Source: Paenibacillus sacheonensis
Lineage (GTDB): Bacteria > Bacillota > Bacilli > Paenibacillales > Paenibacillaceae
Direction: 5' to 3'
Length of the DNA: 64,000 bases
Assembly: GCF_009909195.1 (NCBI RefSeq)
Contig: NZ_JAAAMU010000006.1
Coordinates: 124,001 to 188,000, forward strand
The number at the start of each line of letters is the position of its first letter. The first letter of the stretch is position 1. Made by a program: the position numbers and the translations under genes. The notes below the pieces were generated by a model, which saw only the letters and a list, made by a program, of their open reading frames with translations, did not search any database and had not been told where the DNA came from. Of this stretch, positions 6,541 through 35,165 are shown piece after piece.

Positions 6541-7716
6541 ATGCCGGTTAATCTCGTTTATTTTCTGCTCTTCTACTTCTTCTTCTACATGGGCAACGCC
6601 GTTTACGGCACGTTTATTCCGCTGTACTTCCAGCACGCCGGCTTCACGCAGTCGCAGATCGGAACCCTATTAGGCTTGGGTCCGCTAATCGCAGTTTTGG
6701 CCCAGCCGTTCTGGGGCTTGCTCAGCGACCGCGCGAAGACCAAGAACAGCATTCTGATCCTGCTGCTTATCTGCACCGGCCTCTCGTCGCTGCTCTATCC
6801 GCTGACCAGCCAGTTCACGCTGCTGCTGCTGATCATCTGCGTCTTTACGTTCTTCCAATCCTCGATCTTCCCGCTCAGCGACGCCGTCACGCTGGAGGCG
6901 CTGGACAAGCGCGGACGAGGGGATTTCAGCCGCATTCGCCTAGGGGGCACGGTTGGCTTCGCGATCATGTCGATTCTGTTCGGCATCCTCGCCGAGAAAC
7001 GCATCGATCTCCTGTTCGGCGTGTATGCCGCGCTGCTGGCGATCTGCCTGCTGCTCGTGCTGCGCTTCCCGGCGATCGAAGGGCACCAGACGAGAAGCCG
7101 CCAGCGCATGTCCGTTTGGGCATTGATGCGCAACCGCAAGCTGATGCTCTGCATCGGCGCGAACTTCGTCTTCCAAGTAACGCTGGGTTACTACTACGCC
7201 TTCTTCCCGCTCTACTTCAAGGAGATGGGCGGCGACAGCGCCTGGCTCGGCTGGTCCATGGTCATCTCGTCCCTAAGCGAGGTTCCGTTCCTGCTGCTCT
7301 CGAGCCGTATTTTCAAACGTTTCCGAACCTGGCATATCCTGCTTGCGGCGGGAGCGGCCGCGGCGCTGCGGTGGTACCTGTTCTCGGTAATCCACAGTCC
7401 CGTCTGGCTGCTGCCGACGCAAGCGCTGCACGGGTTGATCTTCATCGTGCTGACCGTCACGATGGCGAACTTCATCAACAAGGAAGTGCCGAACGAGCTG
7501 AAGGCCAGCGGGCAAACGCTGAACGGACTGATCACCATGGGTCTCGCGCGCATCATCGGCAGCCTGGTCGGCGGCGTCGGCAGCGAAGCGTTCGGCATGC
7601 GCAGCATGTTCTTCTATAATTCGCTGGCTGCCGTCTTCTGCGTCCTCGTGTTCGCGCTCGTCTTCCGGTCGCAGGAGCGCAAGGAAGCGGCCGATTCGCG
7701 GCATGCCGCGGTCTAA
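6541..7716 (+). CDS. Major facilitator superfamily transporter (MFS_1-like)
   Basis: The 391-residue protein is strongly hydrophobic with about 12 membrane segments. The loop between helices 2 and 3 reads GLLSDRAKTK, a good match to the MFS G-x-x-x-D-R motif. The N-terminus (YFLLFYFFFYMGNAVYGTFI) and overall length fit the MFS_1-like group that includes HsrA/PPP-type transporters. Substrate cannot be inferred; the short terminal tails argue against extra domains. The start ATG is preceded by AAGAAAGGTAACTTCC, a modest ribosome binding site. It is separated from the upstream CobW gene by a terminator, so it is probably its own unit. Confidence 0.85.
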   Translation: MPVNLVYFLLFYFFFYMGNAVYGTFIPLYFQHAGFTQSQIGTLLGLGPLIAVLAQPFWGLLSDRAKTKNSILILLLICTGLSSLLYPLTSQFTLLLLIICVFTFFQSSIFPLSDAVTLEALDKRGRGDFSRIRLGGTVGFAIMSILFGILAEKRIDLLFGVYAALLAICLLLVLRFPAIEGHQTRSRQRMSVWALMRNRKLMLCIGANFVFQVTLGYYYAFFPLYFKEMGGDSAWLGWSMVISSLSEVPFLLLSSRIFKRFRTWHILLAAGAAAALRWYLFSVIHSPVWLLPTQALHGLIFIVLTVTMANFINKEVPNELKASGQTLNGLITMGLARIIGSLVGGVGSEAFGMRSMFFYNSLAAVFCVLVFALVFRSQERKEAADSRHAAV

Positions 7717-7760
7717 AGACCGTATAGGGCTGCCGCGCAGGACATGCCGAGCGAGCAATT

Positions 7761-7802
7761 TGTCCGTTGTCCGTTTTCCGTTGTCCGTTTTCCGTTGTCC
7801 GT
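7761..7802. repeat. Heptamer tandem array (TGTCCGT/TTTCCGT), 6 units
   Basis: Six consecutive 7-bp units: TGTCCGT, TGTCCGT, TTTCCGT, TGTCCGT, TTTCCGT, TGTCCGT, directly downstream of the MFS gene and upstream of a terminator hairpin. Confidence 0.9.
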
Positions 7803-7814
7803 TCCCGCTCGCCG

Positions 7815-7863
7815 AAAAAGCCTTCAAACCCATAAAACGAATCATGGGGATGAAGGCTTTTTT
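7815..7863. terminator. Terminator hairpin
   Basis: AAAAAGCCTTCA (7815-7826) pairs with TGAAGGCTTTTT (7851-7862), with a T run on the plus strand and an A run before the stem, so it can act in both directions between convergent genes. Confidence 0.8.
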
Positions 7864-7933
7864 CTTTGGCTTCATGAAATCCTGCAGAGTGCCGATTGGT
7901 CTCTACTGCGCGGCAGCAGCTGCGCGCCTGCTG

Positions 7934-9526
7934 TCACTTTTCGAAATACCCTCGCGTATACGCCACGCTGCCGCCCGAATCCAAGTACACCTGCTTCAAT
8001 GTCGCGCGATGCACGATGTTGGACACGTAATAGTAAAGCGGAAGGAGGACCATATTGTCCATCAGCTGCTTCTCCGCCCTGGCATAAAGCTTATTCCTCG
8101 CGACGATATCCGTCGTTCGGTTGGCTTGCCTCAGGATGGCGTCGTAAGCCGGGCTGCTCCAGCCGGAATCGTTGTCGGCGCTCCAGGATGAGAAATACGT
8201 CAGGAAGCTGGCGGGGTCGTTATAATCGGCGCCCCATCCCGCCCTCGCGATATCGAAGTGCTGCTCGCGGCGGTTCTTCAGCAGTTCGCCCCACTCCAGC
8301 ACCTTGACGGAGGCCGACACGCCCAAATTGCGCTTCCACGCTGCGGCAACGGTCTTTGCAACCGATTCATGAGCCCCTGCGTTCAGGCTGATCGCGATGG
8401 GAGGCAATTTCTTCAGTCCCTCTTCCGCCAAGCCTTTGGCCAGCAGCTGCCGGGCCAGCGCCGCGTCTTCCGCGAAATACGCCCCATCGGGCACTTCGGC
8501 GCGGAAGGATTGTTTCGCTCCCGCGATTCCGTCGGCAACGAAGCCGAACGCCGGTGTCCCGTACCCGATCGAACGGCGATCGATCGCCATGGCCAGCGCC
8601 TTGCGAATGTTCAGGTTCGTAAAGGGCCGTTTGTTTAGATTGATTTGGTAGTAATAGGTAGAACCGCTCGGCATGGCCTCCATGGCCGTATCCATCGCCA
8701 CGGCTGATTTGACCAGAATACTCGCCAGATCCATCCCGGTTGCGTCGAACCAGTCGAGCTTCCCTTCCCCGTACCGCGTCGCCTGCGATTCTCCCGTAGA
8801 AGCGTCGAATCTTACGGTGGCAAAATGAACGGAGGCTGCGTCGTAATAATCCGCGTTCTTGGCGAGCTTCACTCCGCTCTCGTCCCAAGCCATCAGCTTG
8901 AAAGGCCCGTTGGTCGCAAGGTCTCCCCGCCTTTGCGCCCATCCCGGGTCGGCTTTCGCCCCCGGCGCGTAGACGGGATCGAAGATTGGTTCAGCCAACA
9001 TCCGCGGAAAATACGCGAGCGGCTCCTTCAGCGTTACCCGCAGCGTATGCTCGTCGACGGCCTTGACGCCGATCTTGGCGTCATCCTTCAACGAGCCCGT
9101 ATTGTACGACTCGGCGTTCTCCAAGACATACAGCTTGTAGACCGTGGGTTTGATCGACGCCGGCGCCAGACTGTTCTTCCAGGCGTATTCGAAATCCGAA
9201 GCCTTCACCGGCTGCTTGTTGCTCCACCTTGCGCCGGCACGAAGCGTAAATGTATAGGTCCTTCCATCGGCCGAGACGGTCCAGCCTGCCGCCATGCCCG
9301 GAACGGCTTTTCCCGTTTCGTCCAGCCGGACCAAACCCTCGAACAGCCCGCCCACGACCGATATGGTGTTCGAATCAGCCGCATCCGAGGGATCTAGCGA
9401 CGCGGGGCTCGAGTATGACCCGATCGCAAGCTGCTGCTTCCACGCCGGCGCAGGTTCGGAGCTTACACCGGCTCCTGCCGTACCGAATCCGAGCACGCCC
9501 GCCAATAATAACTTGATTCCAATCAC
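7934..9526 (-). CDS. Oligopeptide ABC transporter substrate-binding protein (SBP_bac_5), no lipobox
   Basis: The 530-residue protein is a family-5 extracellular solute-binding protein (OppA/DppA type). Recognisable segments are LDPSDAADSNTISVVGGLFEGLVRLD near the N-terminus, GRTYTFTLRAGARWSNKQPVKASDFEYAWK, and INLNKRPFTNLNIRKALAMAIDR in the middle. These proteins capture peptides outside the membrane. The start is taken as GTG 9526, 7 nt after GGAGG; an upstream GTG overlaps that box. The short signal (MIGIKLLLAGVLGFGTAGAG) carries no cysteine, so the protein would not be lipid-anchored as Gram-positive OppA normally is. No permease or ATPase gene is adjacent. Confidence 0.85.
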   Translation of the reverse strand: MIGIKLLLAGVLGFGTAGAGVSSEPAPAWKQQLAIGSYSSPASLDPSDAADSNTISVVGGLFEGLVRLDETGKAVPGMAAGWTVSADGRTYTFTLRAGARWSNKQPVKASDFEYAWKNSLAPASIKPTVYKLYVLENAESYNTGSLKDDAKIGVKAVDEHTLRVTLKEPLAYFPRMLAEPIFDPVYAPGAKADPGWAQRRGDLATNGPFKLMAWDESGVKLAKNADYYDAASVHFATVRFDASTGESQATRYGEGKLDWFDATGMDLASILVKSAVAMDTAMEAMPSGSTYYYQINLNKRPFTNLNIRKALAMAIDRRSIGYGTPAFGFVADGIAGAKQSFRAEVPDGAYFAEDAALARQLLAKGLAEEGLKKLPPIAISLNAGAHESVAKTVAAAWKRNLGVSASVKVLEWGELLKNRREQHFDIARAGWGADYNDPASFLTYFSSWSADNDSGWSSPAYDAILRQANRTTDIVARNKLYARAEKQLMDNMVLLPLYYYVSNIVHRATLKQVYLDSGGSVAYTRGYFEK

Positions 9527-9626
9527 GTTAAGTCCTCCCACGTTGTCTAATCTTCCAAAACTATAGCATGCATAGGAAGCCGTTGGTAGAACAATCTCGG
9601 TTGGAACACTTCGGCCCGGTCAGCGC

Positions 9627-9670
9627 AAAAAGGACCTCAAGTCCGCCAAGACGGCGAACCCGGGTCCTTT
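9627..9670 (-). terminator. Terminator hairpin after uxaC
   Basis: AAAAGGACC (9627-9635) pairs with GGTCCTTT (9663-9670); on the minus strand the stem is followed by T's. It lies about 50 bp beyond the uxaC stop. Confidence 0.6.
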
Positions 9671-9722
9671 GGTATTTTCGGTCCGTTCACGCGAATCATT
9701 CAAAACTCTCAAGAGCTATGTC

Positions 9723-11132
9723 CTAAAACCTAAAATACGCCTTCGCGTTGTTATAACAAACGCCCTGCACGATCTCGCGCAGCAGCTCGGGATCGTTCGG
9801 CGCTTCGCCCTGCTCCACCCATTCGCCGAGCAGATTGCAGAAGATCCGGCGGAAATATTCATGCCGCGTGTACGACAGGAAGCTGCGGGAATCCGTGAGC
9901 ATGCCGACGAAACGAGGCAGCAGCCCCATATTGCCGAGCGACTTGAGCTGCTCCAGCATGCCGTCCTTCGTATCGTTGAACCACCATGCGGCGCCAAGCT
10001 GGATTTTGCCCGGGATGCCGCCGCCCTGGAAACTGCCGATGAGCGCGGCCAGGACGTTGTTGTCCGACGGATTCAGCGAATAAACGATCGTGCGCGGCAG
10101 TTGGTCGTCGGCGTCCAATCGGTCCAGCAGCCGGACGAGCGCCACCGCCACCGGGCTGTCTCCGATGGAATCGAAGCCCGTATCCACGCCGAGCGATGCC
10201 AGCCGGCGCGCGTTGTTATTGCGATGCGCGTTCATATGGTACTGCATGGACCAGCCGAGTTCCGCATAGAGCCGCCCCAGGAACAGCAGCGTGTAGGTCT
10301 TGTATTTCCGCTCCTCTTCCGGCGTTACGCCATTGCCCAGCAGCGCTTTCTCGTAGATAAGCGCCGCTTCCTCGTGCGTCGTCTCCGCCCAAGGCACGTA
10401 ATCGAGCGCATGGTCGGATACCCGGCCGCCGACGGCATGGAAGAACCTCGCCCGCGCCTCCAGCGCATGAAGCAGATCGTCGTAGCTCGCCAGCTCGCGA
10501 TCTGCCGACTCGCCGAGTTTCTCGAGATAGCCTAGAAAAGCGGGACGGTTGATTTCCAGCGCCTTGTCCGGACGGAAAGAAGGCAGAACGCGGAAGCCGA
10601 GCTCCGCTTCCTGCTCGGCGAGCAGACGGTGATGCTCCAGCGAATCGGCCGGATCGTCCGTCGTGCACACGACCTCCACGCCAGCTCCGCGGATAAAATC
10701 CTGAACCGAGAAGCCCCCGCCCTGCAGCTTGGCGTTCGCTTTCTCCCAGATGACCGGCGCGTTCCGCTCGTTGATGAGCTCCTCGATGCCGAACAGCCGC
10801 CGCAGCTCGAGATGCGACCAGTGGTACAGCGGGTTGCCGACCGTCATCGGCACCGTCCGGGCATAAGCCAGGAACCGGTCGTAGTCGCTGACGCCTTCGC
10901 CGCCGGTAATATATTTCTCCTCGACCCCGTTCGCGCGCATCGCCCGCCATTTATAATGGTCGCCGTACAGCCATACTTCCGTCAGGTTGGCATAGCTGCG
11001 ATTTTCGTAAATCTCCTGCTGGCTCAGATGGCAGTGGTAATCGATAATCGGCATGCCGGCCGCGTAATCGCGGTACAATTGCTTGGCAGTCTCGTTATTC
11101 AGCATAAAGTCGTGATCCATAAACGCTTTCAT
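9723..11132 (-). CDS. uxaC: Glucuronate isomerase (uronate isomerase)
   Basis: The 469-residue protein matches UxaC in length and in conserved blocks: MPIIDYHCHLSQQEIYENRSYANLTEVWLYGDHYKWRAMRANGV, NPLYHWSHLELRRLFGI, and the C-terminal SFLSYTRHEYFRRIFCNLLGEWVE. It interconverts D-glucuronate and D-fructuronate, or D-galacturonate and D-tagaturonate, the first cytosolic step of pectin and glucuronoxylan uronate use. H33 and H35 in YHCH are expected metal ligands of this amidohydrolase-superfamily enzyme. A divergent AraC-family gene starts 190 bp away and is the natural candidate regulator. No other uronate pathway genes (uxaA, uxuA, kdgK) are adjacent. Confidence 0.95.
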   Translation of the reverse strand: MKAFMDHDFMLNNETAKQLYRDYAAGMPIIDYHCHLSQQEIYENRSYANLTEVWLYGDHYKWRAMRANGVEEKYITGGEGVSDYDRFLAYARTVPMTVGNPLYHWSHLELRRLFGIEELINERNAPVIWEKANAKLQGGGFSVQDFIRGAGVEVVCTTDDPADSLEHHRLLAEQEAELGFRVLPSFRPDKALEINRPAFLGYLEKLGESADRELASYDDLLHALEARARFFHAVGGRVSDHALDYVPWAETTHEEAALIYEKALLGNGVTPEEERKYKTYTLLFLGRLYAELGWSMQYHMNAHRNNNARRLASLGVDTGFDSIGDSPVAVALVRLLDRLDADDQLPRTIVYSLNPSDNNVLAALIGSFQGGGIPGKIQLGAAWWFNDTKDGMLEQLKSLGNMGLLPRFVGMLTDSRSFLSYTRHEYFRRIFCNLLGEWVEQGEAPNDPELLREIVQGVCYNNAKAYFRF

Positions 11133-11321
11133 AAGCGGCGGACACCATCCTTTTTCCTATCGTTTATTGCCAGCATACCGCAACATTTGCTTCGAATCGC
11201 GGCTTTTCTTGCGCAATGCCATTCAATCTTCGCTTATTTTGCGATAAAATCAACCTAGAATAATAGGCTGCTTATCGACCAAAACCATGTGGGCAAGCTC
11301 GAGAACGATTGGAGGACCGTC

Positions 11322-12179
11322 ATGAAGCTTATACCGGACCAGCCCGTCACGTTCGGGGACGAGGAAGGGGATTTCCATATCCATCAGGTGCATCGGACGA
11401 AGCCGTTCGGGCGCGTGAACCATTTTCACCCCACCTACGAAATCTACTACTTGCGGTCCGGAGAGCGGGTGCATTTTATCGACCGCCGAACCGTGCGACT
11501 GGTGGCTGGCGATCTCGTCCTCGTGAATAAAGGCGTCGTGCATAACGCTTCGGATATCGGACCGCCGGAGCATGAGCGCATCGTCGTCAATTTCAGCGAC
11601 GCTTTCCTCGGCGCGGGCCATCCGCTTCATGATCCGCTGCTCCTCGGGCCGTTCGCGCATCAGGCCTGCGTGCTCAAGCTAAGCTCCCAGGAACGCGTCT
11701 TCGTCGAGCAGCTGCTTGCCAAGCTTGTCGCCGAAGCGGCCCAGCGTCGCCCCGGCCGCGAGGTTTATCTGCGCGTGCTGCTCACGGAGCTGCTGCTGTT
11801 CGCCGCGCGCCATCCGATCGACGATCGGCCCGAGGACGGCGGACAGCGGGACTCGCTGCATCGGAAGATCACCGAGGTCGCCGCGTTCATCGGCGGCAGC
11901 TTCGCGACGAAGCTCACGCTGCCGGACCTTGCCGGCCGATTCTTCGTCAGCCCGTATTACCTCAGCCGCTCCTTCAAGGCGGTGACCGGCTTCACGCTGA
12001 TCGAATACGTCAATCTGACCCGCGTCCGCGAAGCGCAGCGGCTGCTTAGGGAGACGAACCTCAAGGTCATCTCCGTCGCGGAGCAGACCGGCTTCGAGAG
12101 CGCGGGTCATTTCGACCGCATGTTCAAGAAGCTGACGGGCACGACGCCGCTGCTCTATCGGAAGCTGAACCGGCTTTGA
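11322..12179 (+). CDS. AraC-family regulator with cupin sensor domain
   Basis: The 285-residue protein has an N-terminal cupin-like sugar-sensing domain (HQVHRTKPFGRVNHFHPTYEIYYLRSGERVHFIDRR, residues about 18-60) and a C-terminal double helix-turn-helix AraC domain (about 185-285; FVSPYYLSRSFKAVTGFTLIEYVNLTRVREAQRLL, then VISVAEQTGFESAGHFDRMFKKLTGTTPLLYR). GGAGG at 11311 lies 6 nt before ATG 11322; an in-frame GTG at 11289 has no comparable box. It is divergent from uxaC, and regulation of uxaC by a uronate is the simplest guess. A plain transcriptional regulator of other sugar genes remains possible. Confidence 0.9.
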   Translation: MKLIPDQPVTFGDEEGDFHIHQVHRTKPFGRVNHFHPTYEIYYLRSGERVHFIDRRTVRLVAGDLVLVNKGVVHNASDIGPPEHERIVVNFSDAFLGAGHPLHDPLLLGPFAHQACVLKLSSQERVFVEQLLAKLVAEAAQRRPGREVYLRVLLTELLLFAARHPIDDRPEDGGQRDSLHRKITEVAAFIGGSFATKLTLPDLAGRFFVSPYYLSRSFKAVTGFTLIEYVNLTRVREAQRLLRETNLKVISVAEQTGFESAGHFDRMFKKLTGTTPLLYRKLNRL

Positions 12180-12550
12180 AGCGGCACCGAACGAGGGGAG
12201 TAAATCGAACGAGGGAGTAATTGGGTGCTTTTAGCGTTTAAGTTGGCGTAGTTAGTATGAGGCTGACAGCCGTCATGCGCCGTCACACCTCGCAGGGGAG
12301 CCGCGCGAGGTGCCGAAAGTATGCTTTTGAAGCGCAGTTAGGCGTGGTAAGTCGTAGTTGTGCGTGGTTAGTCGCAGTTAGGCGCAGTTGGCTTGCTTAG
12401 CTGGACGCAATAATCGCATCCGCGTGCCGAATGATCAAGGGGACGAAAGTTATGTCAGTTTATCTAACATATACATCTAGCCATTCGGAGCCGATTACGC
12501 TATACTTCTAACCATAGCTTACCCAGCGATGAAGCGAGGTGCATAGTAAA
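12180..12550. other. Gene-free stretch with a hairpin and degenerate decamer repeats
   Basis: No coding sequence is supported in these 371 bp. CACCTCGC (12286-12293) pairs with GCGAGGTG (12305-12312), a possible weak terminator for the AraC gene. The degenerate 10-bp array at 12332-12391 follows. Confidence 0.6.
12332..12391. repeat. Degenerate 10-bp tandem repeat, 6 units
   Basis: Units GCGCAGTTAG, GCGTGGTAAG, TCGTAGTTGT, GCGTGGTTAG, TCGCAGTTAG, GCGCAGTTGG follow one another without gaps. Confidence 0.7.
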
Positions 12551-12718
12551 GTGAATCCGCGTTTGCTTGTGGTTGTCAGCATCTTCTTTATCGGATACGG
12601 AATCGTCGATATTTTGTTCGTGAATTACGTGCTCGGCGTCGCATTGCTGCTGATTGGCGTTTGGATGAACGTGAGCGCGTACAAGAAGCGTAAGGCGGCG
12701 CGCGCGGCGAAGGAATAG
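12551..12718 (+). CDS. Small membrane protein, 55 residues
   Basis: A short frame from GTG 12551 to TAG encodes MNPRLLVVVSIFFIGYGIVD and onward, with two hydrophobic stretches (about residues 4-20 and 25-42) joined by a tight turn, then a basic Lys/Arg/Ala tail. This is a typical two-pass mini-membrane protein with the tail in the cytoplasm by the positive-inside rule. A weak GAGGTG box is about 10 nt upstream. I do not recognise a family, and no neighbour suggests a role. Confidence 0.5.
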   Translation: MNPRLLVVVSIFFIGYGIVDILFVNYVLGVALLLIGVWMNVSAYKKRKAARAAKE

Positions 12719-12852
12719 CGTTTTTGAATGCGAGGCAGGATGAATACCGCGCAGCTTCCGGTCGGAGGCTGCTTTTTCGTGCCTTGATGTCGAATATAAT
12801 TAGAACTTAATGTATTAGCCCGTCGTCTGTAAGGAAGAACGAAGGGAATTCC

Positions 12853-13325
12853 ATGATACGCAAATCGCTGCCTGTAATCGTTGCTCTTGCCTTGTTACTG
12901 AGCGCATGCCGATTAGGAGAACGCACGATCCATCTGAGCGATTCGCCCCCGCAGCCTTTGGTAACCGCTAACGGAAAAGCGGTTCAGGTCTATCAAAGCA
13001 GCTACTGCTGGGGCGACGAATGTGCGGATTACGTCAGCGCGGAAGAGATGTTACAAGATAAAAAGAAAGATGCGATAGCCGCAAATGCAACCTTTACGTT
13101 CCAATACGAAGGAAAACAGCCGAAACCAGCTTGACCCAATTCCATGACGGCGCATATAAACAAATAACGATAACCGATAACGCCTTTCAAGGCCCTGGAG
13201 AACATGGAATCTATTACTATGCGCTGTCCGCGACATGGCTGAAAAACAAGAAGAAGCGAATCGCCGAGGGGGATTCGAGCTCCGTTTTCGCGATCGAAAT
13301 CACCGGAGATGCTGAAGGGAAATGA
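12853..13325 (+). pseudogene. Lipoprotein gene broken by a frameshift
   Basis: The first frame (12853-13134) encodes a lipoprotein start (VALALLLSAC, lipobox Cys19) and ends at a TGA. A second frame, offset by -1, runs from TTG 13131 to 13325 and continues the same protein: TQFHDGAYKQITI through GIYYYALSATWLKNKKKRI to FAIEIT. I recall intact Paenibacillus lipoproteins in which these two halves are contiguous (SYCWGNECAD..., FDYKPQP..., GVYYYALSA...SSVFVIEV). Adding one A to the AAA at 13122-13124 would join the frames as QPK-TSLTQF. It is either a true frameshift or a sequencing error. The function of the family is unknown to me. Confidence 0.7.
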
Positions 13326-13414
13326 CGAAGGGGCGTGATGCGCGCGTCCGTTTCGAATCCATTCGATAAGTGAGCAGTCGACTGCGAACTTCATCGCAGT
13401 GCTCGCTCGCCTTC

Positions 13415-13607
13415 CATAGAAATAAGTGCAGATCTGCACTTATTTCTATGATTTCGCACCGTAATTCGGAAATAGGTGCATTTCTGCAACTAATCCATAA
13501 ATAAGGTGCAGTTGTGACGATGAATTGGAGGAATAGTTGCAGTTTTGCACTTATTTGCTCCCATTTCGCTAATAGTCGCAAAATAAGTGCAGATTAGCAC
13601 TTATTTT
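13415..13607. repeat. Cluster of palindromic AAATAAGTGCA/TGCACTTATTT elements
   Basis: The first unit (13415-13450) is a perfect 36-bp palindrome with half-site CATAGAAATAAGTGCAGA. Degenerate units follow at about 13469-13496, 13498-13522, 13531-13556 and 13571-13607. The same element recurs at 41041-41229. Confidence 0.85.
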
Positions 13608-13657
13608 CCAATATTGTTGGCTGTTGCGTCCCCCGCTGGCTTCTTCGCGAGCGGCTT

Positions 13658-13729
13658 CTACTGCAAAATCTACTGCGACATTTACTGTGACATTTACTGC
13701 GACATTTACTGCGACACTTTCTGCGACAT
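13658..13729. repeat. 12-bp tandem repeat, 6 units
   Basis: Units are CTACTGCAAAAT, CTACTGCGACAT, TTACTGTGACAT, TTACTGCGACAT, TTACTGCGACAC and TTTCTGCGACAT. Confidence 0.85.
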
Positions 13730-13787
13730 AAGGATACACGCCGTTTCCGATGCCGACAGTTCGTATCCGTTCCTCAAAACAAATAAC

Positions 13788-13821
13788 AACAGCGTGTCCG
13801 GTTATCTTCGGACACGCTGTT
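13788..13821 (-). terminator. Terminator of the phosphodiester glycosidase gene
   Basis: AACAGCGTGTCCG (13788-13800) pairs perfectly with its complement (13809-13821) around an 8-nt loop; the minus-strand product is followed by TTGTTATTTGTTTT. Confidence 0.85.
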
Positions 13822-13855
13822 AAGTTGCGCCAGCAAGACCTTGCACTGCAACGCT

Positions 13856-14701
13856 TCACTTCAGCAGCCGCAGCATCTGCACCACCGGCCGCCCGTCGCC
13901 GCTCAGCCGGATTTCGCGGCTGCGAAGCTGCGAGGAGCCGTCCCCGTCGAGGAAGATGCCGCCGGAGAGCCTTCCTCCGCCGATCCGCTCCACGATCGCG
14001 GAACGGAAGTCGGCGAGCGTTCCTCTCGTCGTGCTGACGACGAGATACAGGCTGCCGGCGTCGTCGTAGACCGCCGCGGAACGCAGCCGTTTGTCCTCGA
14101 TGTTCGGCGCCTGCTCCGCTTCCGCCTGCGCCAGCCACTTATCGTCTCGGCCGAGGCTCATGGAGATCCCGCCTTGGGCCCAATAATGCGAGCGGTCCGT
14201 GACGCGAAGGTCGGATGCGGAGCTGACGGTTTGCACGCTCAGCTTTCCCGCCGCTTCGTCCCACACGAGCGTTCCGCGCGCGTATTTGGCATTGAGATCG
14301 CCCGCTCCGTAGACATTCGGCGCCGCATTGACGGGCATGTCGTCCACGACGGCGATGCTGAGCAGCGACTCTTGGAAGAAGAAGCCGCCGTTCACGCCGT
14401 AATACGGTCCAAGCGATACGTTCTTATGAATCGACTCCGGGCGGACGTTGTCCGGACGCGTCATCAAGTAGTGCAAGTCCATTCCGTTCGCGGCCGAGAC
14501 CTCGCCGTAGACATAGGCATGGGGCATGCTCAGCTCGTCGTCCTCCGGCTGCCCGCCGAACGGACGAATCAGCAGGAACAGCACGGCGCCCAGCATGAAT
14601 ATAAAAGCAAACCCGCCGCAGAGGACGGGCGCCAGCAGCGATCGATTGTCTTGAGGCGCCTTGCCGCGCGCGCCTTCCTCAACGGTCGGTTTATCCGTCA
14701 T
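13856..14701 (-). CDS. Membrane-anchored phosphodiester glycosidase-domain protein (NAGPA/DUF2233)
   Basis: The 281-residue protein has a short cytoplasmic N-terminus, one membrane segment (LLAPVLCGGFAFIFMLGAVLFLLI, about residues 22-46), and an extracellular domain. Conserved NAGPA-type blocks are visible: GVNGGFFF (about 104), the ARGTLVWDEA segment, AQGGISM, and the C-terminal GGIFLDGDGSSQLRSR. The family cleaves phosphodiester-linked sugars, as in the mammalian mannose-6-phosphate uncovering enzyme; bacterial relatives act on cell-wall or exopolysaccharide phosphodiesters. ATG 14701 is chosen because GAGG lies 9 nt upstream; an ATG at 14719 is the alternative. It appears monocistronic. 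Confidence 0.75.
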   Translation of the reverse strand: MTDKPTVEEGARGKAPQDNRSLLAPVLCGGFAFIFMLGAVLFLLIRPFGGQPEDDELSMPHAYVYGEVSAANGMDLHYLMTRPDNVRPESIHKNVSLGPYYGVNGGFFFQESLLSIAVVDDMPVNAAPNVYGAGDLNAKYARGTLVWDEAAGKLSVQTVSSASDLRVTDRSHYWAQGGISMSLGRDDKWLAQAEAEQAPNIEDKRLRSAAVYDDAGSLYLVVSTTRGTLADFRSAIVERIGGGRLSGGIFLDGDGSSQLRSREIRLSGDGRPVVQMLRLLK

Positions 14702-14814
14702 TTCTTCTGACCTCATCATTCCATTGTATGCGACGCTTCGTTTCCTGCATTGTAAAGGAAATCATCGGCAGCGTCACGGCCCATCCCGTTTCTTCAGCTC
14801 TTCCGGCTTCCCGT

Positions 14815-15183
14815 TCATTCCGTCCCGTGCCATTCCGAGAAGTGCCAGCAGACCCCTGAAGGATCGATCAGATGCACTTCGCGCTTGCCCCACGGATAAC
14901 GCGTCGGTTCCTTTGCCTTGATCCGGTAAGCCCCGCGCTGCGAGACGGCTTGAATACGGCTCCACCAGCCGTCCAGATCCTCGACCGCCAGCTCCAGCAT
15001 GAACTGGTTCTGGAACGCTTGGTCATGGAAGTTCTGCAAATAAAACTCCTGTTCTCCGACCCTGAAAATGCTGATCGACTCATCCGCATAGCGCTTCTCG
15101 AAACCGAGCTCTTCGAAGAACCGCTGCGCGAGCGCGTAATCTTCCCCCGACGGCACGAATGGCCTGAGCTTACGCGCGTCCAT
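14815..15183 (-). CDS. VOC/glyoxalase superfamily protein
   Basis: The 122-residue protein has the two-part VOC layout: KLRPFVPSGEDYALAQRFFEELGFEKRY at the start, EFYLQNF in the middle and the terminal HLIDPSGVCWHFSEW, typical of the second beta-alpha-beta-beta-beta module. VOC proteins include glyoxalases, dioxygenases, epimerases and antibiotic-binding proteins; this single-domain form usually dimerises. The function is not determinable. Its start overlaps the end of the upstream esterase gene by 14 bp, indicating translational coupling in one operon. The frame extends upstream to 15306, but that portion is antisense-like and lies inside the esterase gene. Confidence 0.75.
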   Translation of the reverse strand: MDARKLRPFVPSGEDYALAQRFFEELGFEKRYADESISIFRVGEQEFYLQNFHDQAFQNQFMLELAVEDLDGWWSRIQAVSQRGAYRIKAKEPTRYPWGKREVHLIDPSGVCWHFSEWHGTE

Positions 15184-30252: not shown

Positions 30253-32208
30253 CTATAAGAGATGCATTTTCTCTTCCGCTTCCTCCCACGGCACCGTATA
30301 CCCATGGCCCTTGGCGCAAAAAATCGATGACGAGCTGTACAGCGGGTCCGCGTCTTTGCGGTAACCGCGCTGCTCGATCACCTCGCGTTCGTTATGGCAG
30401 CGCTCGTAACCGCCGAAGGTCAGACGAACCATGCCTCTGCCATGCGTAAACGAAGCCAGCTCCTTGCTGTAGTCCATGAACGTGGCGACGGGAACTTGAC
30501 CCGTGATGACTGCATGGGCGGCCGTCGTCTGCGGCGGGTCGAATCGCCCGGAGGCCCGTTCGATATCGGACAGCACCCTGCCCATATCGTCGATCTCGAC
30601 TTTGATCTTATACGCGTAATAGGGCTCGAGCAGCACGTTCTCCGCTTTCTCCAAGCCTTGCCGCAAGGCACGGAAGGTCGCTTCGCGAAAATCGCCGCCG
30701 TGCGTATGCTCGTTGTGCGCGCCGCCCTTCAGCAGCGTAATCCGGATATCGGTGAGCGGCATTCCCGTTAACAGCCCGTGATGGTCGCGCTCGTAGAGAT
30801 GCGTCTTGACGAGATTTTGATTGCCCGCGCTTAGATCGCTCGCGTGGCAGGCATTCGCGAACGTGATTCCGCTGCCCCGCTCCCCCGGTTCCAGGCGCAG
30901 ATGCACTTCGGCATAATGCTTGAGCGGCTCGAAGTGCCCGTAGCCGTTCACCGCGGACGCGATCGTTTCTTTATACAGAATTTCCGGTCTGCCGAAGGAG
31001 ACGGCGATCTGGAATCGTTCGCTCACCAGCTGCTCCAGCACTTCAAGCTGAATAAGGCCCATCACGTGGATGTGGATTTCCTGCAGGCTTTCCTCCCAGA
31101 CGACGTTCAAGGAAGGGTCTTCGGCATTCAGGATTCGAAAGGCTCCCAGTACGTCCTTCACGTTCAGGGAATCCGCAAATTCCACCTTCGACGTCAACGT
31201 CGGCACCAGCTCGTAGACCAGCTTGTCCGAATAGATGCCCAGACCTTGGCCTGCCTCTGCGCCCGACAGTCCGGTCACCGCGAACAAATCACCGGCCGAG
31301 ACCTGGTCGACGGCATGCATTTTGCTCCCGTTGACGATGAGAATCCGGGTCGCTTTCTCGCAAACGCGAACCTCCCCGCTGTCATAGCACAATTCGTCGC
31401 GAACCTTGAGCGTTCCGCTTAACGCCTTGACGTAGGTCAAGCGCACGCCTTTCGGATCATGGCGAATTTTATAGATGCGTCCCCCGAAGGGCGTCCCATC
31501 GTCATAGTCGACGGTCGCCAGCCGATGAAGCTGATCCATGAATTCGATCACGCCGACATCCTGCAGGGCGGAGCCGCTCGCGCAAGGAAAGAGCCGATGT
31601 CCGCGAATCTGCGCCTGCAGCGTCCGCAGCCAGAAGGCCTGGTCTCCCGTACCCGCCAGAAACGTTTCCAATAACGACTCGTCCCGCTCCGCCATGAATT
31701 CCAACAATCCTTCTCCTACGATGCCGTCCGCGAAGCTGCCGGTCAGCATGCAGACATCCGCCGTCAGGTGCATGCGAATGTCCTCGGTCACGCGTTCAAC
31801 GTCCGCGCCGACCCGATCGGTCTTATTGATGAAGAAGAACGTCGGAATGCGATGCTTATGAAGCAGCTGCCAGACCGTCTCGGTGTGGCTCTGAATGCCT
31901 TCCACCGCGCTGATGACGAGAATCGCGGCATCCATCACTTGGACCGCCCGTTCCATCTCCGGCGAGAAGTCGACGTGACCCGGCGTATCGATCAGATAAT
32001 AGGTCGCCCCTTTATACGTCATGACCGCCTGATCCGCGAACACCGTGATGCCTCTGGCCCGTTCGATATCATGACTGTCGAGGTAGGCGTCCTTGTGATC
32101 GACCCTGCCCCGCTCCCGAATGCTGTTCGTATGGTAAAGCAGCTGCTCGGCAAACGTGGTCTTCCCCGCATCCACGTGAGCGAACAGACCAATGGTTGTA
32201 GGTTTCAT
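30253..32208 (-). CDS. TetM/TetO-like ribosomal-protection-type translational GTPase
   Basis: The 651-residue protein is an EF-G-like GTPase of the TetM class. G1 is AHVDAGKTT (residues about 10-18), G3 is DTPGHVDF, and G4 is NKTDR. Domain II/III and the C-terminal domain (ITLLKGGAHNEHTHGGDFREATFRALRQGLEKAENVLLEPYYAYKI) follow the TetM plan. Acquired TetM proteins release tetracycline from the ribosome; many soil Firmicutes carry chromosomal homologues of uncertain role, and the base composition here matches the surroundings, so recent acquisition is unlikely. AAGGGG precedes ATG 32208. It is divergent, by 216 bp, from the KAS III fusion operon. Confidence 0.88.
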   Translation of the reverse strand: MKPTTIGLFAHVDAGKTTFAEQLLYHTNSIRERGRVDHKDAYLDSHDIERARGITVFADQAVMTYKGATYYLIDTPGHVDFSPEMERAVQVMDAAILVISAVEGIQSHTETVWQLLHKHRIPTFFFINKTDRVGADVERVTEDIRMHLTADVCMLTGSFADGIVGEGLLEFMAERDESLLETFLAGTGDQAFWLRTLQAQIRGHRLFPCASGSALQDVGVIEFMDQLHRLATVDYDDGTPFGGRIYKIRHDPKGVRLTYVKALSGTLKVRDELCYDSGEVRVCEKATRILIVNGSKMHAVDQVSAGDLFAVTGLSGAEAGQGLGIYSDKLVYELVPTLTSKVEFADSLNVKDVLGAFRILNAEDPSLNVVWEESLQEIHIHVMGLIQLEVLEQLVSERFQIAVSFGRPEILYKETIASAVNGYGHFEPLKHYAEVHLRLEPGERGSGITFANACHASDLSAGNQNLVKTHLYERDHHGLLTGMPLTDIRITLLKGGAHNEHTHGGDFREATFRALRQGLEKAENVLLEPYYAYKIKVEIDDMGRVLSDIERASGRFDPPQTTAAHAVITGQVPVATFMDYSKELASFTHGRGMVRLTFGGYERCHNEREVIEQRGYRKDADPLYSSSSIFCAKGHGYTVPWEEAEEKMHLL

Positions 32209-32424
32209 CGTATCCCCTTGATTTCGTTATGTCTTGGCTTGCCTGCAACTATCCTAACATAGTCATGGACGATGTTCATGAAACATTTCGCGGTCCCGAT
32301 CGTCTCTTAGCGGTCGCACCCATGCTCCACATGCAGGTACCAGAACAATTTAGTACTAGGCATTCAACCTCATATAGCCGATGATAGAGCATAGTATACA
32401 AATTTTCCATAAAGGAGAATTGCT

Positions 32425-34293
32425 ATGAATGCCGTTTATATAACCAGCATCGGGAAGTTCCTGCCCGGCGCGCCCATCGGTAACGACGCTATCGAAGCCT
32501 ATCTCGGGCAGATCGGCGGAAAAAGCTCGAAAGCCATGCGGCGCGTGCTGGACCAAAATAAGATCCGCACCCGTTATTACGCCATCGATACCGATCAGAA
32601 GAGTCTCTATTCCAATGCGGAGATGGCTGCCCATGCGATTCGCGATTCGCTGGAACGGAATCACGACGATCTCGCCGATCGCATCGACTTCTTGGCCGTC
32701 GGCACGACGCAGGGCGATCTGCTGGTTCCCGGGTTTGCCAGCATGGTTCACGCGGAGACCCGCCTGCCCGCCATGGAAATCGCAACGCATCACGGCGTCT
32801 GCGGCAGCGGCATGCAGGCGATCAAGAATGCCTTCCTCCAGGTGCAGTCCGGGGAGAAGAAAGCCGCCGTCTCTTGTGCCAGCGAGTTCTCCAGCCGCGT
32901 CTTCAAGCACACCCGCTTCGAGGCGCAGGCCAAATTCATGGACCATGCGATTCCGTTCGATACGGACTTCCTTCGCTTCATGCTGTCCGATGGCGCCGGT
33001 GCAGCCGTGCTCCAGCATAAACCGAGCGATCAGGGGCTGTCCCTCCGCATCGAATGGATCGACAACAAGTCGTACGCCAATCTCTACGATACCTGCATGT
33101 ATGCGGGCATGAATAAAGACGCCGGCGCGGAAAGTCAGCCCGGCTGGCTCGATTATGCATCCATCCATGAAGCGGCAAACGACGGAGCCATTAATTTGAA
33201 GCAGGACATCCGCCTCGTCAACGAAATGCCGAAGGTCGGCGTGAACCGGTTCTTCGAGCTCGTGGACGAAGGAAAAGTGAATCCGTCCGACATCGATTGG
33301 ATGGTGTGCCACTACTCGTCCCATTATTTCCGCGAAGAGATCTTCCGGCTCATGCAGCTTGGCGGGATGACCATTCCCGAAGACAGATGGTTTACGAACC
33401 TCTATACGAAGGGCAATACGGGCGCCGCTTCGATCTATATCATGCTGGAGGAACTGTTCAACGAAGGGCATCTGAAACCGGGCGAGAAGGTGCTCTGCAT
33501 GGTGCCGGAGAGCGGAAGATTTCAGACCTCGTATATGCTGTTGACGGTCGTCGGCACAGAGAGCAGGATCGTCGCCGACGCCATGGAGCGTCAGCCCGAA
33601 GCACCGCATTTGGACTACGACGCATCCAACTCGGTTCAGTCCCATCTGGTGCGGAAGCTGGTCAACGTATGGATCGATTTTGAACAAAAGCTTGCTCGCG
33701 TGCCAATCATTCATAAGCTGTATCGGGGCAAATTCACGTTGGACGATTACAAGCTGCTCATGGAGAACATTCGGCAGCAGGTCATCGACGGGTCCCAGTG
33801 GATCGCGCGCGCGGCCTCCTACATCGCGATCGAGCATATCGAGCTGCGCTCGATGTTTATCGCCCATGCCCGCGACGAGCATCGCGATTTTCAAATGCTG
33901 GAACGCAATTACGCGGCCGTGGGAGGGGATCTGGCAGTCATTCAATCCGGGGAGAAAAACATCGGCAGCGAGGCGCTGTCCGCCTACCTGTTCCAACGGG
34001 CAAGCCGGGAGAATCCGGTTGATCTGATGGGCGCGATGTGGATTATCGAGGGTCTCGGATGCCGCATGGCGAGGCATTGGGGCGAGGCGATCCGCGACCA
34101 GCTCCGCTTGAACGACGATCAGGTTTCCTTCCTGCTCTATCACAGCGACTCGGACGAGAAGCATTTCGAGCGTCTCGAGGCCGGCATTCAGCATCCGATG
34201 CTTACGATGGCGCTTGCCGAGCGGATCGTAAAAACCGCGAAAACGACAGCACGGCTGTACTTATTACAGTTAGAGGAGCTGGGCAACGTATGA
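32425..34293 (+). CDS. Fusion: KAS III-type ketosynthase plus haem-oxygenase-like diiron oxidase domain
   Basis: The 622-residue protein joins two enzymes. Residues about 1-375 form a 3-oxoacyl-ACP-synthase-III thiolase fold with the full Cys-His-Asn set: C126 in HHGVCGSGMQ, H296 in VCHYSSHYF and N331 in KGNTGAAS. Residues about 400-622 are all-helical with metal-ligand-like residues E470, H481, E485/H486 (ARDEHRDF), E542 (IIEGLGCRMARH) and H573/D577/H580 (YHSDSDEKHFERL), the pattern of TenA-like, iron-containing HDO oxidases (UndA/SznF fold). I recall StlD/DarB-type ketosynthases as relatives, but from memory only. No signal peptide is present. AAAGGAGAATTGCT precedes ATG. It overlaps the next gene by ATGA. 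It probably makes a modified beta-keto lipid or aryl-polyene-like metabolite; the reaction is unknown. Confidence 0.8.
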   Translation: MNAVYITSIGKFLPGAPIGNDAIEAYLGQIGGKSSKAMRRVLDQNKIRTRYYAIDTDQKSLYSNAEMAAHAIRDSLERNHDDLADRIDFLAVGTTQGDLLVPGFASMVHAETRLPAMEIATHHGVCGSGMQAIKNAFLQVQSGEKKAAVSCASEFSSRVFKHTRFEAQAKFMDHAIPFDTDFLRFMLSDGAGAAVLQHKPSDQGLSLRIEWIDNKSYANLYDTCMYAGMNKDAGAESQPGWLDYASIHEAANDGAINLKQDIRLVNEMPKVGVNRFFELVDEGKVNPSDIDWMVCHYSSHYFREEIFRLMQLGGMTIPEDRWFTNLYTKGNTGAASIYIMLEELFNEGHLKPGEKVLCMVPESGRFQTSYMLLTVVGTESRIVADAMERQPEAPHLDYDASNSVQSHLVRKLVNVWIDFEQKLARVPIIHKLYRGKFTLDDYKLLMENIRQQVIDGSQWIARAASYIAIEHIELRSMFIAHARDEHRDFQMLERNYAAVGGDLAVIQSGEKNIGSEALSAYLFQRASRENPVDLMGAMWIIEGLGCRMARHWGEAIRDQLRLNDDQVSFLLYHSDSDEKHFERLEAGIQHPMLTMALAERIVKTAKTTARLYLLQLEELGNV

Positions 34294-35165
34294 GCCGGTC
34301 CGATTATTTCAAGAACATGCCGCACGACAAGCAGAACCCGAATCCGTTCCTGGCGATCTACCTGGACCAAAGCATCCCGTTCAACGAAGAAGCGAAGGCC
34401 TCGTACCTAAAGGACTGCTCGAGCAAATCCAGGCAATTCGTGCTTCCGATCTTGAGGCCGCTGTCCCGGCTGATGATCATTCTGTTCCAAATCTACAAAA
34501 TCATCGTCCCGAAAGCATTCACGTCCTCCAAATTACTGCATCGTTTCTTGTATTGGGGCATGAAGACCTTCGTGAGCCCGGACGCCAACTTTATGATTCT
34601 CCGTCACTTTTATCTCGGTTCCGAGATTCTGCAGTTCATCCGGGACAACATTCCCGGCGTCCAGATCGAGATGAATCCGCTGAAACCGATGAATCTCGAG
34701 CCGGTCAAGGACGATTTATTTCTCGTTCACGACCTCAACTTATACAATTTCATCATCAATCTGAATATCCAAATCCGCGAGAATAACATCGAAGTGACCA
34801 AGCAGGAACGGCTTCGTTTCGATGCCATCACTTCGTCCCCCATTCCGATCGAACGGATGCCCGATCGGTGGACCAACAAGCTCGATCTGATGACGGCGAT
34901 CGAGTGCTTCACGCCGGTCTATCAGTTTTTCTTGACCGATAACGACTTTTGGCGGGCCACGAACTCCTTGCAGCTCGATGAGACGATCGGCATTTTGGCC
35001 TCCAAGCTGATCGGCAGCAACGACAGGCTGGCCTTGATCAACAACAAGCACCCGATGGTGCCGCTCTCCACGCTTCGGGCCGGATTCCGGCTCGTGCTTC
35101 ACGGACTCGCGACCGAGCAGCTCCACGCGCTGCTCGTGGAGTTGAAAAACAAACAGGCTGCTTAA
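34290..35165 (+). CDS. Unknown protein coupled to the KAS III-oxidase fusion
   Basis: The 291-residue protein starts within an ATGA overlap with the fusion gene, so the two are translationally coupled; GAGGAG lies about 11 nt upstream. It begins MSRSDYFKNMPHDKQNPNPF, has one hydrophobic amphipathic stretch (FVLPILRPLSRLMIILFQIYKIIV, about residues 50-73) and is otherwise soluble and helical. Aromatic- and Asn-rich segments (FLVHDLNLYNFIINLNIQIREN; ECFTPVYQFFLTDNDFWRATNSLQLDETIG) contain His/Asp/Glu residues that might bind metal, but no known motif is clear. I do not recognise the family. The strict coupling suggests a partner, membrane-associated accessory or downstream enzyme for the fusion product. 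Confidence 0.8.
   Translation: MSRSDYFKNMPHDKQNPNPFLAIYLDQSIPFNEEAKASYLKDCSSKSRQFVLPILRPLSRLMIILFQIYKIIVPKAFTSSKLLHRFLYWGMKTFVSPDANFMILRHFYLGSEILQFIRDNIPGVQIEMNPLKPMNLEPVKDDLFLVHDLNLYNFIINLNIQIRENNIEVTKQERLRFDAITSSPIPIERMPDRWTNKLDLMTAIECFTPVYQFFLTDNDFWRATNSLQLDETIGILASKLIGSNDRLALINNKHPMVPLSTLRAGFRLVLHGLATEQLHALLVELKNKQAA

Follow-up and report, generated by a model that had tools for sequence, protein, structure and literature searches.

We found that the soil bacterium Paenibacillus sacheonensis carries a two-gene unit on the + strand, in which a ketosynthase (KS) is joined in one chain to a haem-oxygenase-like dimetal oxidase (HDO) domain and is followed by a protein of the family DUF6999. 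The unit occupies positions 32425 to 35165 of the window, by which we mean the whole 64,000-nucleotide stretch that was analyzed (Table 1). The set recurs in several phyla, and the unit probably yields an undescribed oxidized lipid. The ATG of the partner gene (34290) overlaps the TGA of the fusion gene as ATGA, and the two-gene coupling proposed in an earlier, sequence-only reading of this DNA is supported.

Table 1. Features of the KS-HDO/DUF6999 unit, in window positions
Feature	Position	Strand	Basis or remark
Fusion gene	32425-34293	+	Single intact frame, 622 aa, ATG start
Putative RBS of fusion gene, AAAGGAG	32411..32417	+	Read from sequence; role assigned by position
KS domain, residues 1-378, StlD/DarB-type, Cys126/His296/Asn331	32425..33558	+	Profiles, PDB match, alignment
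Interdomain linker	33559..33600	+	Alignment; length varies among relatives
HDO domain, from residue 393	33601..34290	+	PF14518, AF2 model, fold matches, invariant residues
Partner, DUF6999 (PF22523), 291 aa	34290-35165	+	Pfam match; helical model
15-bp hairpin, partner's TAA stop (35163-35165) in loop	35148..35181	+	Centroid -24.5 kcal/mol, z -5.96

The fusion carries an StlD/DarB-type ketosynthase

The sequence-only reading had taken the first gene for a fusion of KAS III and a haem-oxygenase-like domain, and this was borne out by matches to NF005293, PF14518, and the PDB entries 5gk0 and 3dde. Residues 4 to 376 scored 434 bits against NF005293, the NCBIfam model of the StlD/DarB family, and did not reach its cut-off of 450 bits. 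Likewise, the KS domain scored 394 bits against the DarB model NF053539, the cut-off of which is 550 bits. Among the KSs of this system found by the KS search of carrier genomes, the best scored 442 bits against NF005293, and none attained 450. A match to PF08541 in the KS domain was over its cut-off, and StlD (PDB 5gk0) was matched with an E value of 5e-83. The NF005293 score and the 5gk0 match support the kinship with StlD and DarB, which the earlier reading had raised as a possibility.

The set of Cys126, His296, and Asn331 is complete, as had been read from the sequence: it is invariant in 24/24 aligned rows, and the three residues are also identical in 31/31 KSs of the system and in 6/6 outgroup KSs of the StlD/DarB type. 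Thirty-one KS positions show no variation among the 31 system proteins and the 6 outgroup proteins; 14 more, including R158, F160, and G103, are fixed within the system but differ in at least one outgroup row. The 31 system KSs make up one side of a branch of the KS tree (support 91/94, not starred). Thus, the system KS has full-length homology and the C-H-N triad in common with StlD of Photorhabdus and DarB, the 1,3-cyclohexanedione/dialkylresorcinol ketosynthases, but unlike them it is joined to an HDO, lies under both curated cut-offs, and has its own branch in the tree. Since it scores below the StlD/DarB and DarB cut-offs and has system-fixed positions, it may not make a cyclohexanedione.

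The HDO domain has a variant candidate metal site

A profile search of the C-terminal half of the fusion, which the earlier reading had suggested as a check, identified PF14518 (Haem_oxygenas_2) at residues 494 to 612 with 35.3 bits, above the cut-off of 28.9. The fusion sequence also matched the HO-like protein of PDB entry 3dde (E 3e-5). The haem-oxygenase-like fold was supported by an AF2 model of the domain (pLDDT 92.6; alignment of 35 sequences), which VIA-align superimposed on 3dde (Sden_3740) with a Z score of 25.0 (rmsd 2.1, 216 aligned), on CADD (1rcw; Z 23.7, rmsd 2.1, 209 aligned), on HrmI (9nh9; Z 20.1), and on FlcD (9b9m; Z 19.3). True haem oxygenases scored about as high (Z 20.5 and less), and therefore the cofactor is not decided by the fold alone. 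Foldseek also listed UndA among the matches of the model (4wwj, E 3.8e-4; 6p5q).

Seven residues of the domain, H481, E485, D488, E542, H573, D577, and H580, are invariant in 31/31 aligned members. Of the metal ligands suggested from the sequence, H481, E485, E542, H573, D577, and H580 therefore hold as candidates, whereas E470 (E in 6/24 rows) and H486 (H in 17/24 rows) are unconserved and were rejected. The invariant D488 was absent from that list.

According to the accessible part of PMC13108848, the usual HDO site draws three His and as many carboxylates from the three core helices, whereas a minority of sites is of the 3H/4C kind, and helix 1 of FlcD bears a Glu and a His in the accessible part of PMC11363339. 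Ligand numbers were not found in the part of PMC11965152 that was available. In the fusion, the helix-2 carboxylate (E542) and the helix-3 motif H-x3-D-x2-H (H573, D577, H580) are kept in 31/31 members, with two extra residues between D577 and H580 in the Bacteroidota. Helix 1 was compared with a canonical pattern defined by 3dde and the HDO of genome G515 (L159) alone; four other HDOs (L160, L161, L167, and L168) gave no clear helix-1 ligand match and were excluded from the comparison. By this sequence alignment, the helix-1 Glu of 3dde and L159 corresponds to E485, kept in 31/31, and the canonical helix-1 His position to D488, also in 31/31, while the invariant H481 lies 4 residues before E485 and seven before the canonical His position. 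The residues for a three-His site are thus present in a changed arrangement, suggesting a variant candidate site. Because the usual helix-1 His is an Asp here, dimetal chemistry is not assured. In summary, the domain has the HO-like fold, the helix-2 carboxylate, and the helix-3 His/Asp/His in common with 3dde and the HDO superfamily (UndA, SznF, CADD, HrmI, and FlcD); unlike that superfamily, it is fused or adjacent to a ketosynthase, with Asp488 at the helix-1 His position. DtpC of Acinetobacter is, as far as the accessible text of PMC13232832 shows, an HDO protein of another kind.

The partner belongs to DUF6999

The statement that the partner matches no known family proved wrong: it matched PF22523 (DUF6999) with 418.2 bits, against a gathering cut-off of 27. 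This family has a name and no known function and is apparently unstudied; a full-text search of the open-licence literature found no paper naming it. The model of the partner (34 sequences; pLDDT 88.7) is helical throughout. It had no match in the PDB, the best E value in Foldseek being 0.79, and the best VIA superposition had a Z score of 3.6 (rmsd 5.2, 146 aligned), by which a new fold is not established. The membrane-binding-like segment noticed earlier is consistent with residues 49 to 67, the most hydrophobic 19-residue stretch (Kyte-Doolittle mean 1.69).

We compared 91 DUF6999 sequences, namely, those of the window, the Pseudoalteromonas plasmid locus L020, the 80 loci L023 to L102, and the nine loci L115 to L123 (see below). 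Numbered from the residue after the start Met, N99, R104, H105, H146, D147, D198, D229, N251, R266, H270, and E275 are invariant in all of them, and H253 is kept in 90/91. To judge from this conservation, the invariant residues look like an active site, which possibly binds metal.

The unit recurs across phyla in fused and split forms

Two degenerate patterns derived from a DUF6999 alignment, when run against 84,980 species genomes, revealed at least 112 relatives, the best 80 of which were kept as loci L023 to L102. They comprise 38 loci of Bacillota (Paenibacillus, Cohnella, and one filed as Bacillus), 26 of Bacteroidota, 14 of Pseudomonadota, one of Acidobacteriota, and one contig labelled Myxococcota. 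The Bacteroidota, Pseudomonadota, and other carriers rule out a Firmicutes-specific system. With L020 and the nine loci from a whole-genome search (L115 to L123), 90 intact loci were available. At 90/90 loci, DUF6999 is preceded on its own strand by an HDO of this type, and at 89/90 also by a KS, the exception (L102) stopping at a contig border. Thus, while the partner is a DUF6999 member by sequence, at the loci examined it is also tied to an upstream HDO. About 3 kb separate the fusion from DUF6999 at L090, the HDO extends over two frames at L050, and the KS does so at L078.

At three loci, all of Pseudomonadota (L020, L121, and L122), KS and HDO are separate neighboring genes. The branch of L121 is long, and the frames called for its KS and HDO overlap slightly; there may be a frameshift. 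In the KS tree, the fused rows fail to form a single clade (AU p 0.013, the group having been named after the tree was seen), and in the HDO tree they make up one side of a branch with a support of 35/0. A single origin of the fusion is thus rejected by the KS tree, yet it is compatible with the HDO tree.

Outside the 90 loci are eight further Bacillota loci (L011 to L018), mostly from genomes already represented, 8/8 of which have the fusion and DUF6999. Also outside are a remnant in genome G003 and a weak partial DUF6999 match in genome G1139 (L124) that contains a stop and has no HDO. In a sample of Bacillota at large, DUF6999 was detected in 1/398 genomes, the one being the window itself, and in a Bacteroidota sample in 3/247, including the weak G1139 match. 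In viral contigs, no DUF6999 was confirmed. Caulobacter vibrioides, a control genome, had matches to DUF6999, PF04116, NF005293, and PF14518 at the whole-genome level.

HDO and DUF6999 co-occur

Among 398 Pseudomonadota genomes, 9 contain DUF6999. With a threshold of 1e-10, the HDO profile had matches in 82 of these genomes (in many genomes, only 7 candidates were scored), and the 82 fall into two clearly separate groups, 9 genomes at 283 to 336 bits and 73 at 51.8 to 89.7 bits. An HDO of at least 283 bits was present in 9/9 genomes with DUF6999 versus 0/389 of the other Pseudomonadota, where the next best score was 89.7. Of 98 genomes related to that of the window, 9 have the HDO and 10 have DUF6999; both were present in 9, and the HDO alone in none. 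The tenth DUF6999 genome, G003, has the remnant, which contains an internal stop. The fusion is absent from the 19-kb stretch examined there, and such an HDO was not found elsewhere in that genome. Because of the kinship among the genomes, the counts should not be read as independent events.

Neighboring genes suggest a lipid product

The operon, described earlier as standing alone, does so in the window, but in many relatives it has neighbors of the hydroxylase or desaturase type. Neighbors were counted by their similarity to a small number of queries. By this count, 20/26 Bacteroidota loci (of the 80), L123, and 15/23 Pseudomonadota loci have a membrane fatty-acid-hydroxylase-type gene upstream and in the same orientation. 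A fatty-acid-desaturase-type gene accompanies 13/23 Pseudomonadota loci, and 11 of these have it between the hydroxylase and the KS; the upstream DNA of L098 and L099 was too short for this count. A Pfam scan detected PF04116 in 5/5 hydroxylase-type and PF00487 in 3/3 desaturase-type proteins scanned. Five Chitinophaga and Flavihumibacter loci and one Flagellimonas locus are without the hydroxylase, and at L115 and L116 a PLD-type gene (PF13091) is also present upstream. In some Lysobacteraceae, the fusion appeared to have an N-terminal extension; as a domain it was rejected, and it is read instead as an out-of-frame run-through in GC-rich DNA, spanning the hydroxylase and desaturase genes that lie upstream.

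In Bacillota, the hydroxylase lies directly downstream on the opposite strand at 3/38 loci. PF04116 had no match in the window's genome or in 11/15 of the Bacillota carriers searched, suggesting that such tailoring is accessory and outside the core. The PF04116- and PF00487-type neighbors suggest that the product is a lipid.

Most carriers have no DarA match

In the characterized dialkylresorcinol pathway, DarB works with DarA, which is both DAR-cyclase and DAR-aromatase according to the accessible parts of PMC3992019 and PMC3949708. We recognized DarA by its position beside the true DarB of genome G504 and beside the counterparts of that DarB in two other genomes, and used one Chitinophaga sequence as the query, with which a very distant aromatase could be missed. 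This one-query search revealed DarA in 3/30 carrier genomes (G504, G511, and G902) and not in the other 27, which include the window's genome. A second KS, over the StlD/DarB cut-off and taken as a true DarB, was present in the same 3 genomes only, of 22 carriers searched, and it adjoins DarA. DarB is usually paired with DarA, while the system KS has no DarA match in 27/30 carriers. This fits the view that the HDO supplies the oxidation, but does not prove it.

Proposed function

We tentatively propose, as a reading that is quite possible if somewhat short of probable, that the KS makes a beta-dicarbonyl, the HDO oxidizes it in cis with O2, and DUF6999 acts next. The KS would join two fatty-acyl-derived thioesters to a beta-dicarbonyl; by analogy with its characterized relatives, a long-chain cyclohexane-1,3-dione is the likeliest product. 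The HDO domain of the same chain would bind a dimetal, probably diiron, center and oxidize the KS product while it is being formed. It would replace the separate aromatase DarA, giving a resorcinol-like or otherwise oxidized ring lipid; aromatization is one choice among several oxidations. That the product is oxidized in place, as the sequence-only reading had it, is a reasonable inference, helped by the loci with separate KS and HDO genes and by the lack of a DarA match in most carriers. DUF6999 would either be a second, obligate enzyme or help to handle the substrate, and the membrane hydroxylases of many Bacteroidota and Pseudomonadota, together with the desaturases of Pseudomonadota, could tailor the product further.

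Instead, the KS might perform an OleA-like head-to-head or a chain-extending Claisen condensation, and a UndA-like HDO might then decarboxylate or cleave the product oxidatively to a long-chain alkene, a ketone, or a shortened lipid. UndA is among the fold matches (4wwj and 6p5q), and its decarboxylation of fatty acids was the first validated HDO activity according to the accessible part of PMC13108848. The KS, however, is closest to the StlD/DarB group among the families compared, and a hydrocarbon product poorly explains the recurring hydroxylase and desaturase genes and the strict pairing with DUF6999; we consider this route unlikely. The HDO could also hydroxylate the product of the condensation, for instance, at the carbon flanked by two ketones, to a hydroxylated dione or acyloin-type lipid, which DUF6999 would rearrange or transfer. 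HDOs catalyze oxygenations as well as oxidations (accessible part of PMC13108848), and the constant presence of DUF6999 with the HDO is what an unstable intermediate would lead one to expect. Yet no residue or neighbor separates this monooxygenation from a desaturation, and PMC13108848, in the same part, describes C-C cleavage, N-oxygenation, rearrangement, and radical transfer rather than hydroxylation of a ring carbon; monooxygenation seems unlikely to a similar degree. The non-canonical ligand pattern of helix 1 would suit an HDO that does not act on the KS product and serves as an O2 or redox sensor or a metal store controlling the KS. This is very unlikely, as seven His and carboxylate residues are invariant in 31/31 distant members and some lineages keep the HDO as a stand-alone gene, a pattern more in line with an enzyme than with a regulatory domain.

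The proposal of cis oxidation by the HDO can be extended to a joint reading, which we hold to be doubtful: a widespread, unrecognized lipid pathway with an invariant core of KS, HDO, and DUF6999 would make a new class of oxidized, possibly quinone-like, membrane lipids. Its HDO would be a new ligand variant, with the helix-1 His moved by seven residues, that aromatizes or oxygenates the nascent ring in place of DarA. DUF6999 would be a second metal-dependent enzyme (invariant H105, H146, D147, D198, D229, H270, and E275) with a fold absent from the PDB.

Both enzyme halves are members of known superfamilies, and the joint KS, HDO, and DUF6999 system was not found among the matches listed from the accessible parts of the open-licence literature. 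No paper in that literature was found for heme oxygenase-like, ketosynthase, and DarB together, a KS-HDO pair was not among the matches listed, and a search on the annotation names returned only unrelated plant and yeast lipid work. The data link DUF6999 to a condensing enzyme and an oxidase of the O2-activating type with near-perfect co-occurrence across phyla, which makes the function of DUF6999 directly testable. Furthermore, the system suggests an alternative route for oxidizing cyclohexanedione-type lipids, and if the HDO ligand set truly differs, it would widen the known repertoire of dimetal sites.

A hairpin at the end of the unit

The terminator postulated in the sequence-only reading, with the stop codon in its loop, was confirmed as a hairpin with the stop in the loop, but it has a weak T-tail and is absent from the sites listed by the terminator scan. 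Promoter and terminator scanning of the window gave about as many sites as in shuffled sequences (terminator-like sites, 3 versus a shuffle mean of 3.0). The hairpin stands between convergent genes, the next gene being of the DNA-alkylation-repair type (PF08713).

Remnant and interrupted copies of the unit

In genome G003, one of the 98 relatives of the window's genome, DUF6999 is reduced to a remnant with an internal stop codon. Neither a fusion of the StlD/DarB-type ketosynthase (KS) to the haem-oxygenase-like dimetal oxidase (HDO) in the 19-kb stretch examined nor such an HDO elsewhere in the genome was found. Since the remnant is disrupted and KS-HDO is absent, these results suggest that G003 lost the entire KS-HDO and DUF6999 unit. 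In two other loci, L078 and L050, one domain was split across two frames, perhaps by assembly or sequencing frameshifts.

Table. Coordinates of features in the window and in fetched loci
Locus	Position	Strand	Feature
Window	30253-32208	-	Gene for an EF-G-family GTPase (Pfam: EF-G domains)
L019 (G003, C23)	9928-10281		DUF6999 remnant
L078 (Taibaiella MAG)	8095-9971		KS in two frames
L050 (Paenibacillus gorillae draft)	8135-10001		HDO in two frames
L081 (Sinomicrobium)	10887-11615		Second, distant hydroxylase-like gene
L083 (Sinomicrobium)	10892-11605		Second, distant hydroxylase-like gene
L020 (split system)	11439-11996		Upstream gene
L122 (split system)	8441-9007		Upstream gene
L022 (plasmid)	6989-8131		StlD/DarB-type KS
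L125 (plasmid)	7992-9128		StlD/DarB-type KS
L021 (Streptomyces plasmid)	6712-15110		Cluster with StlD-like KS

Neighboring genes and related proteins

In its size, the GTPase encoded in the window recalls ribosomal protection proteins. The second hydroxylase-like genes of L081 and L083 lie directly 3' of DUF6999. In L020 and L122, two of the systems with KS and HDO as separate neighboring genes, the upstream genes each encode ~185-188 aa and were without a match in a Pfam search.

The KS genes of L022 and L125 (Bacteroides and Prevotella plasmids) are preceded by a regulator-type gene, helix-turn-helix and TetR, respectively, and no annotated DarA, the usual DarB partner, was found in the displayed stretch of either. 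The annotated Streptomyces cluster additionally comprises two ACPs, FabF, FabG, a P450 and an FAD oxidoreductase.

HDO-like frames of a second tier (~52-90 bits to the HDO profile), often 220-235 aa long, occur in 73 of the 398 Pseudomonadota genomes; many of these 73 genomes measure just 1.3-3 Mb.
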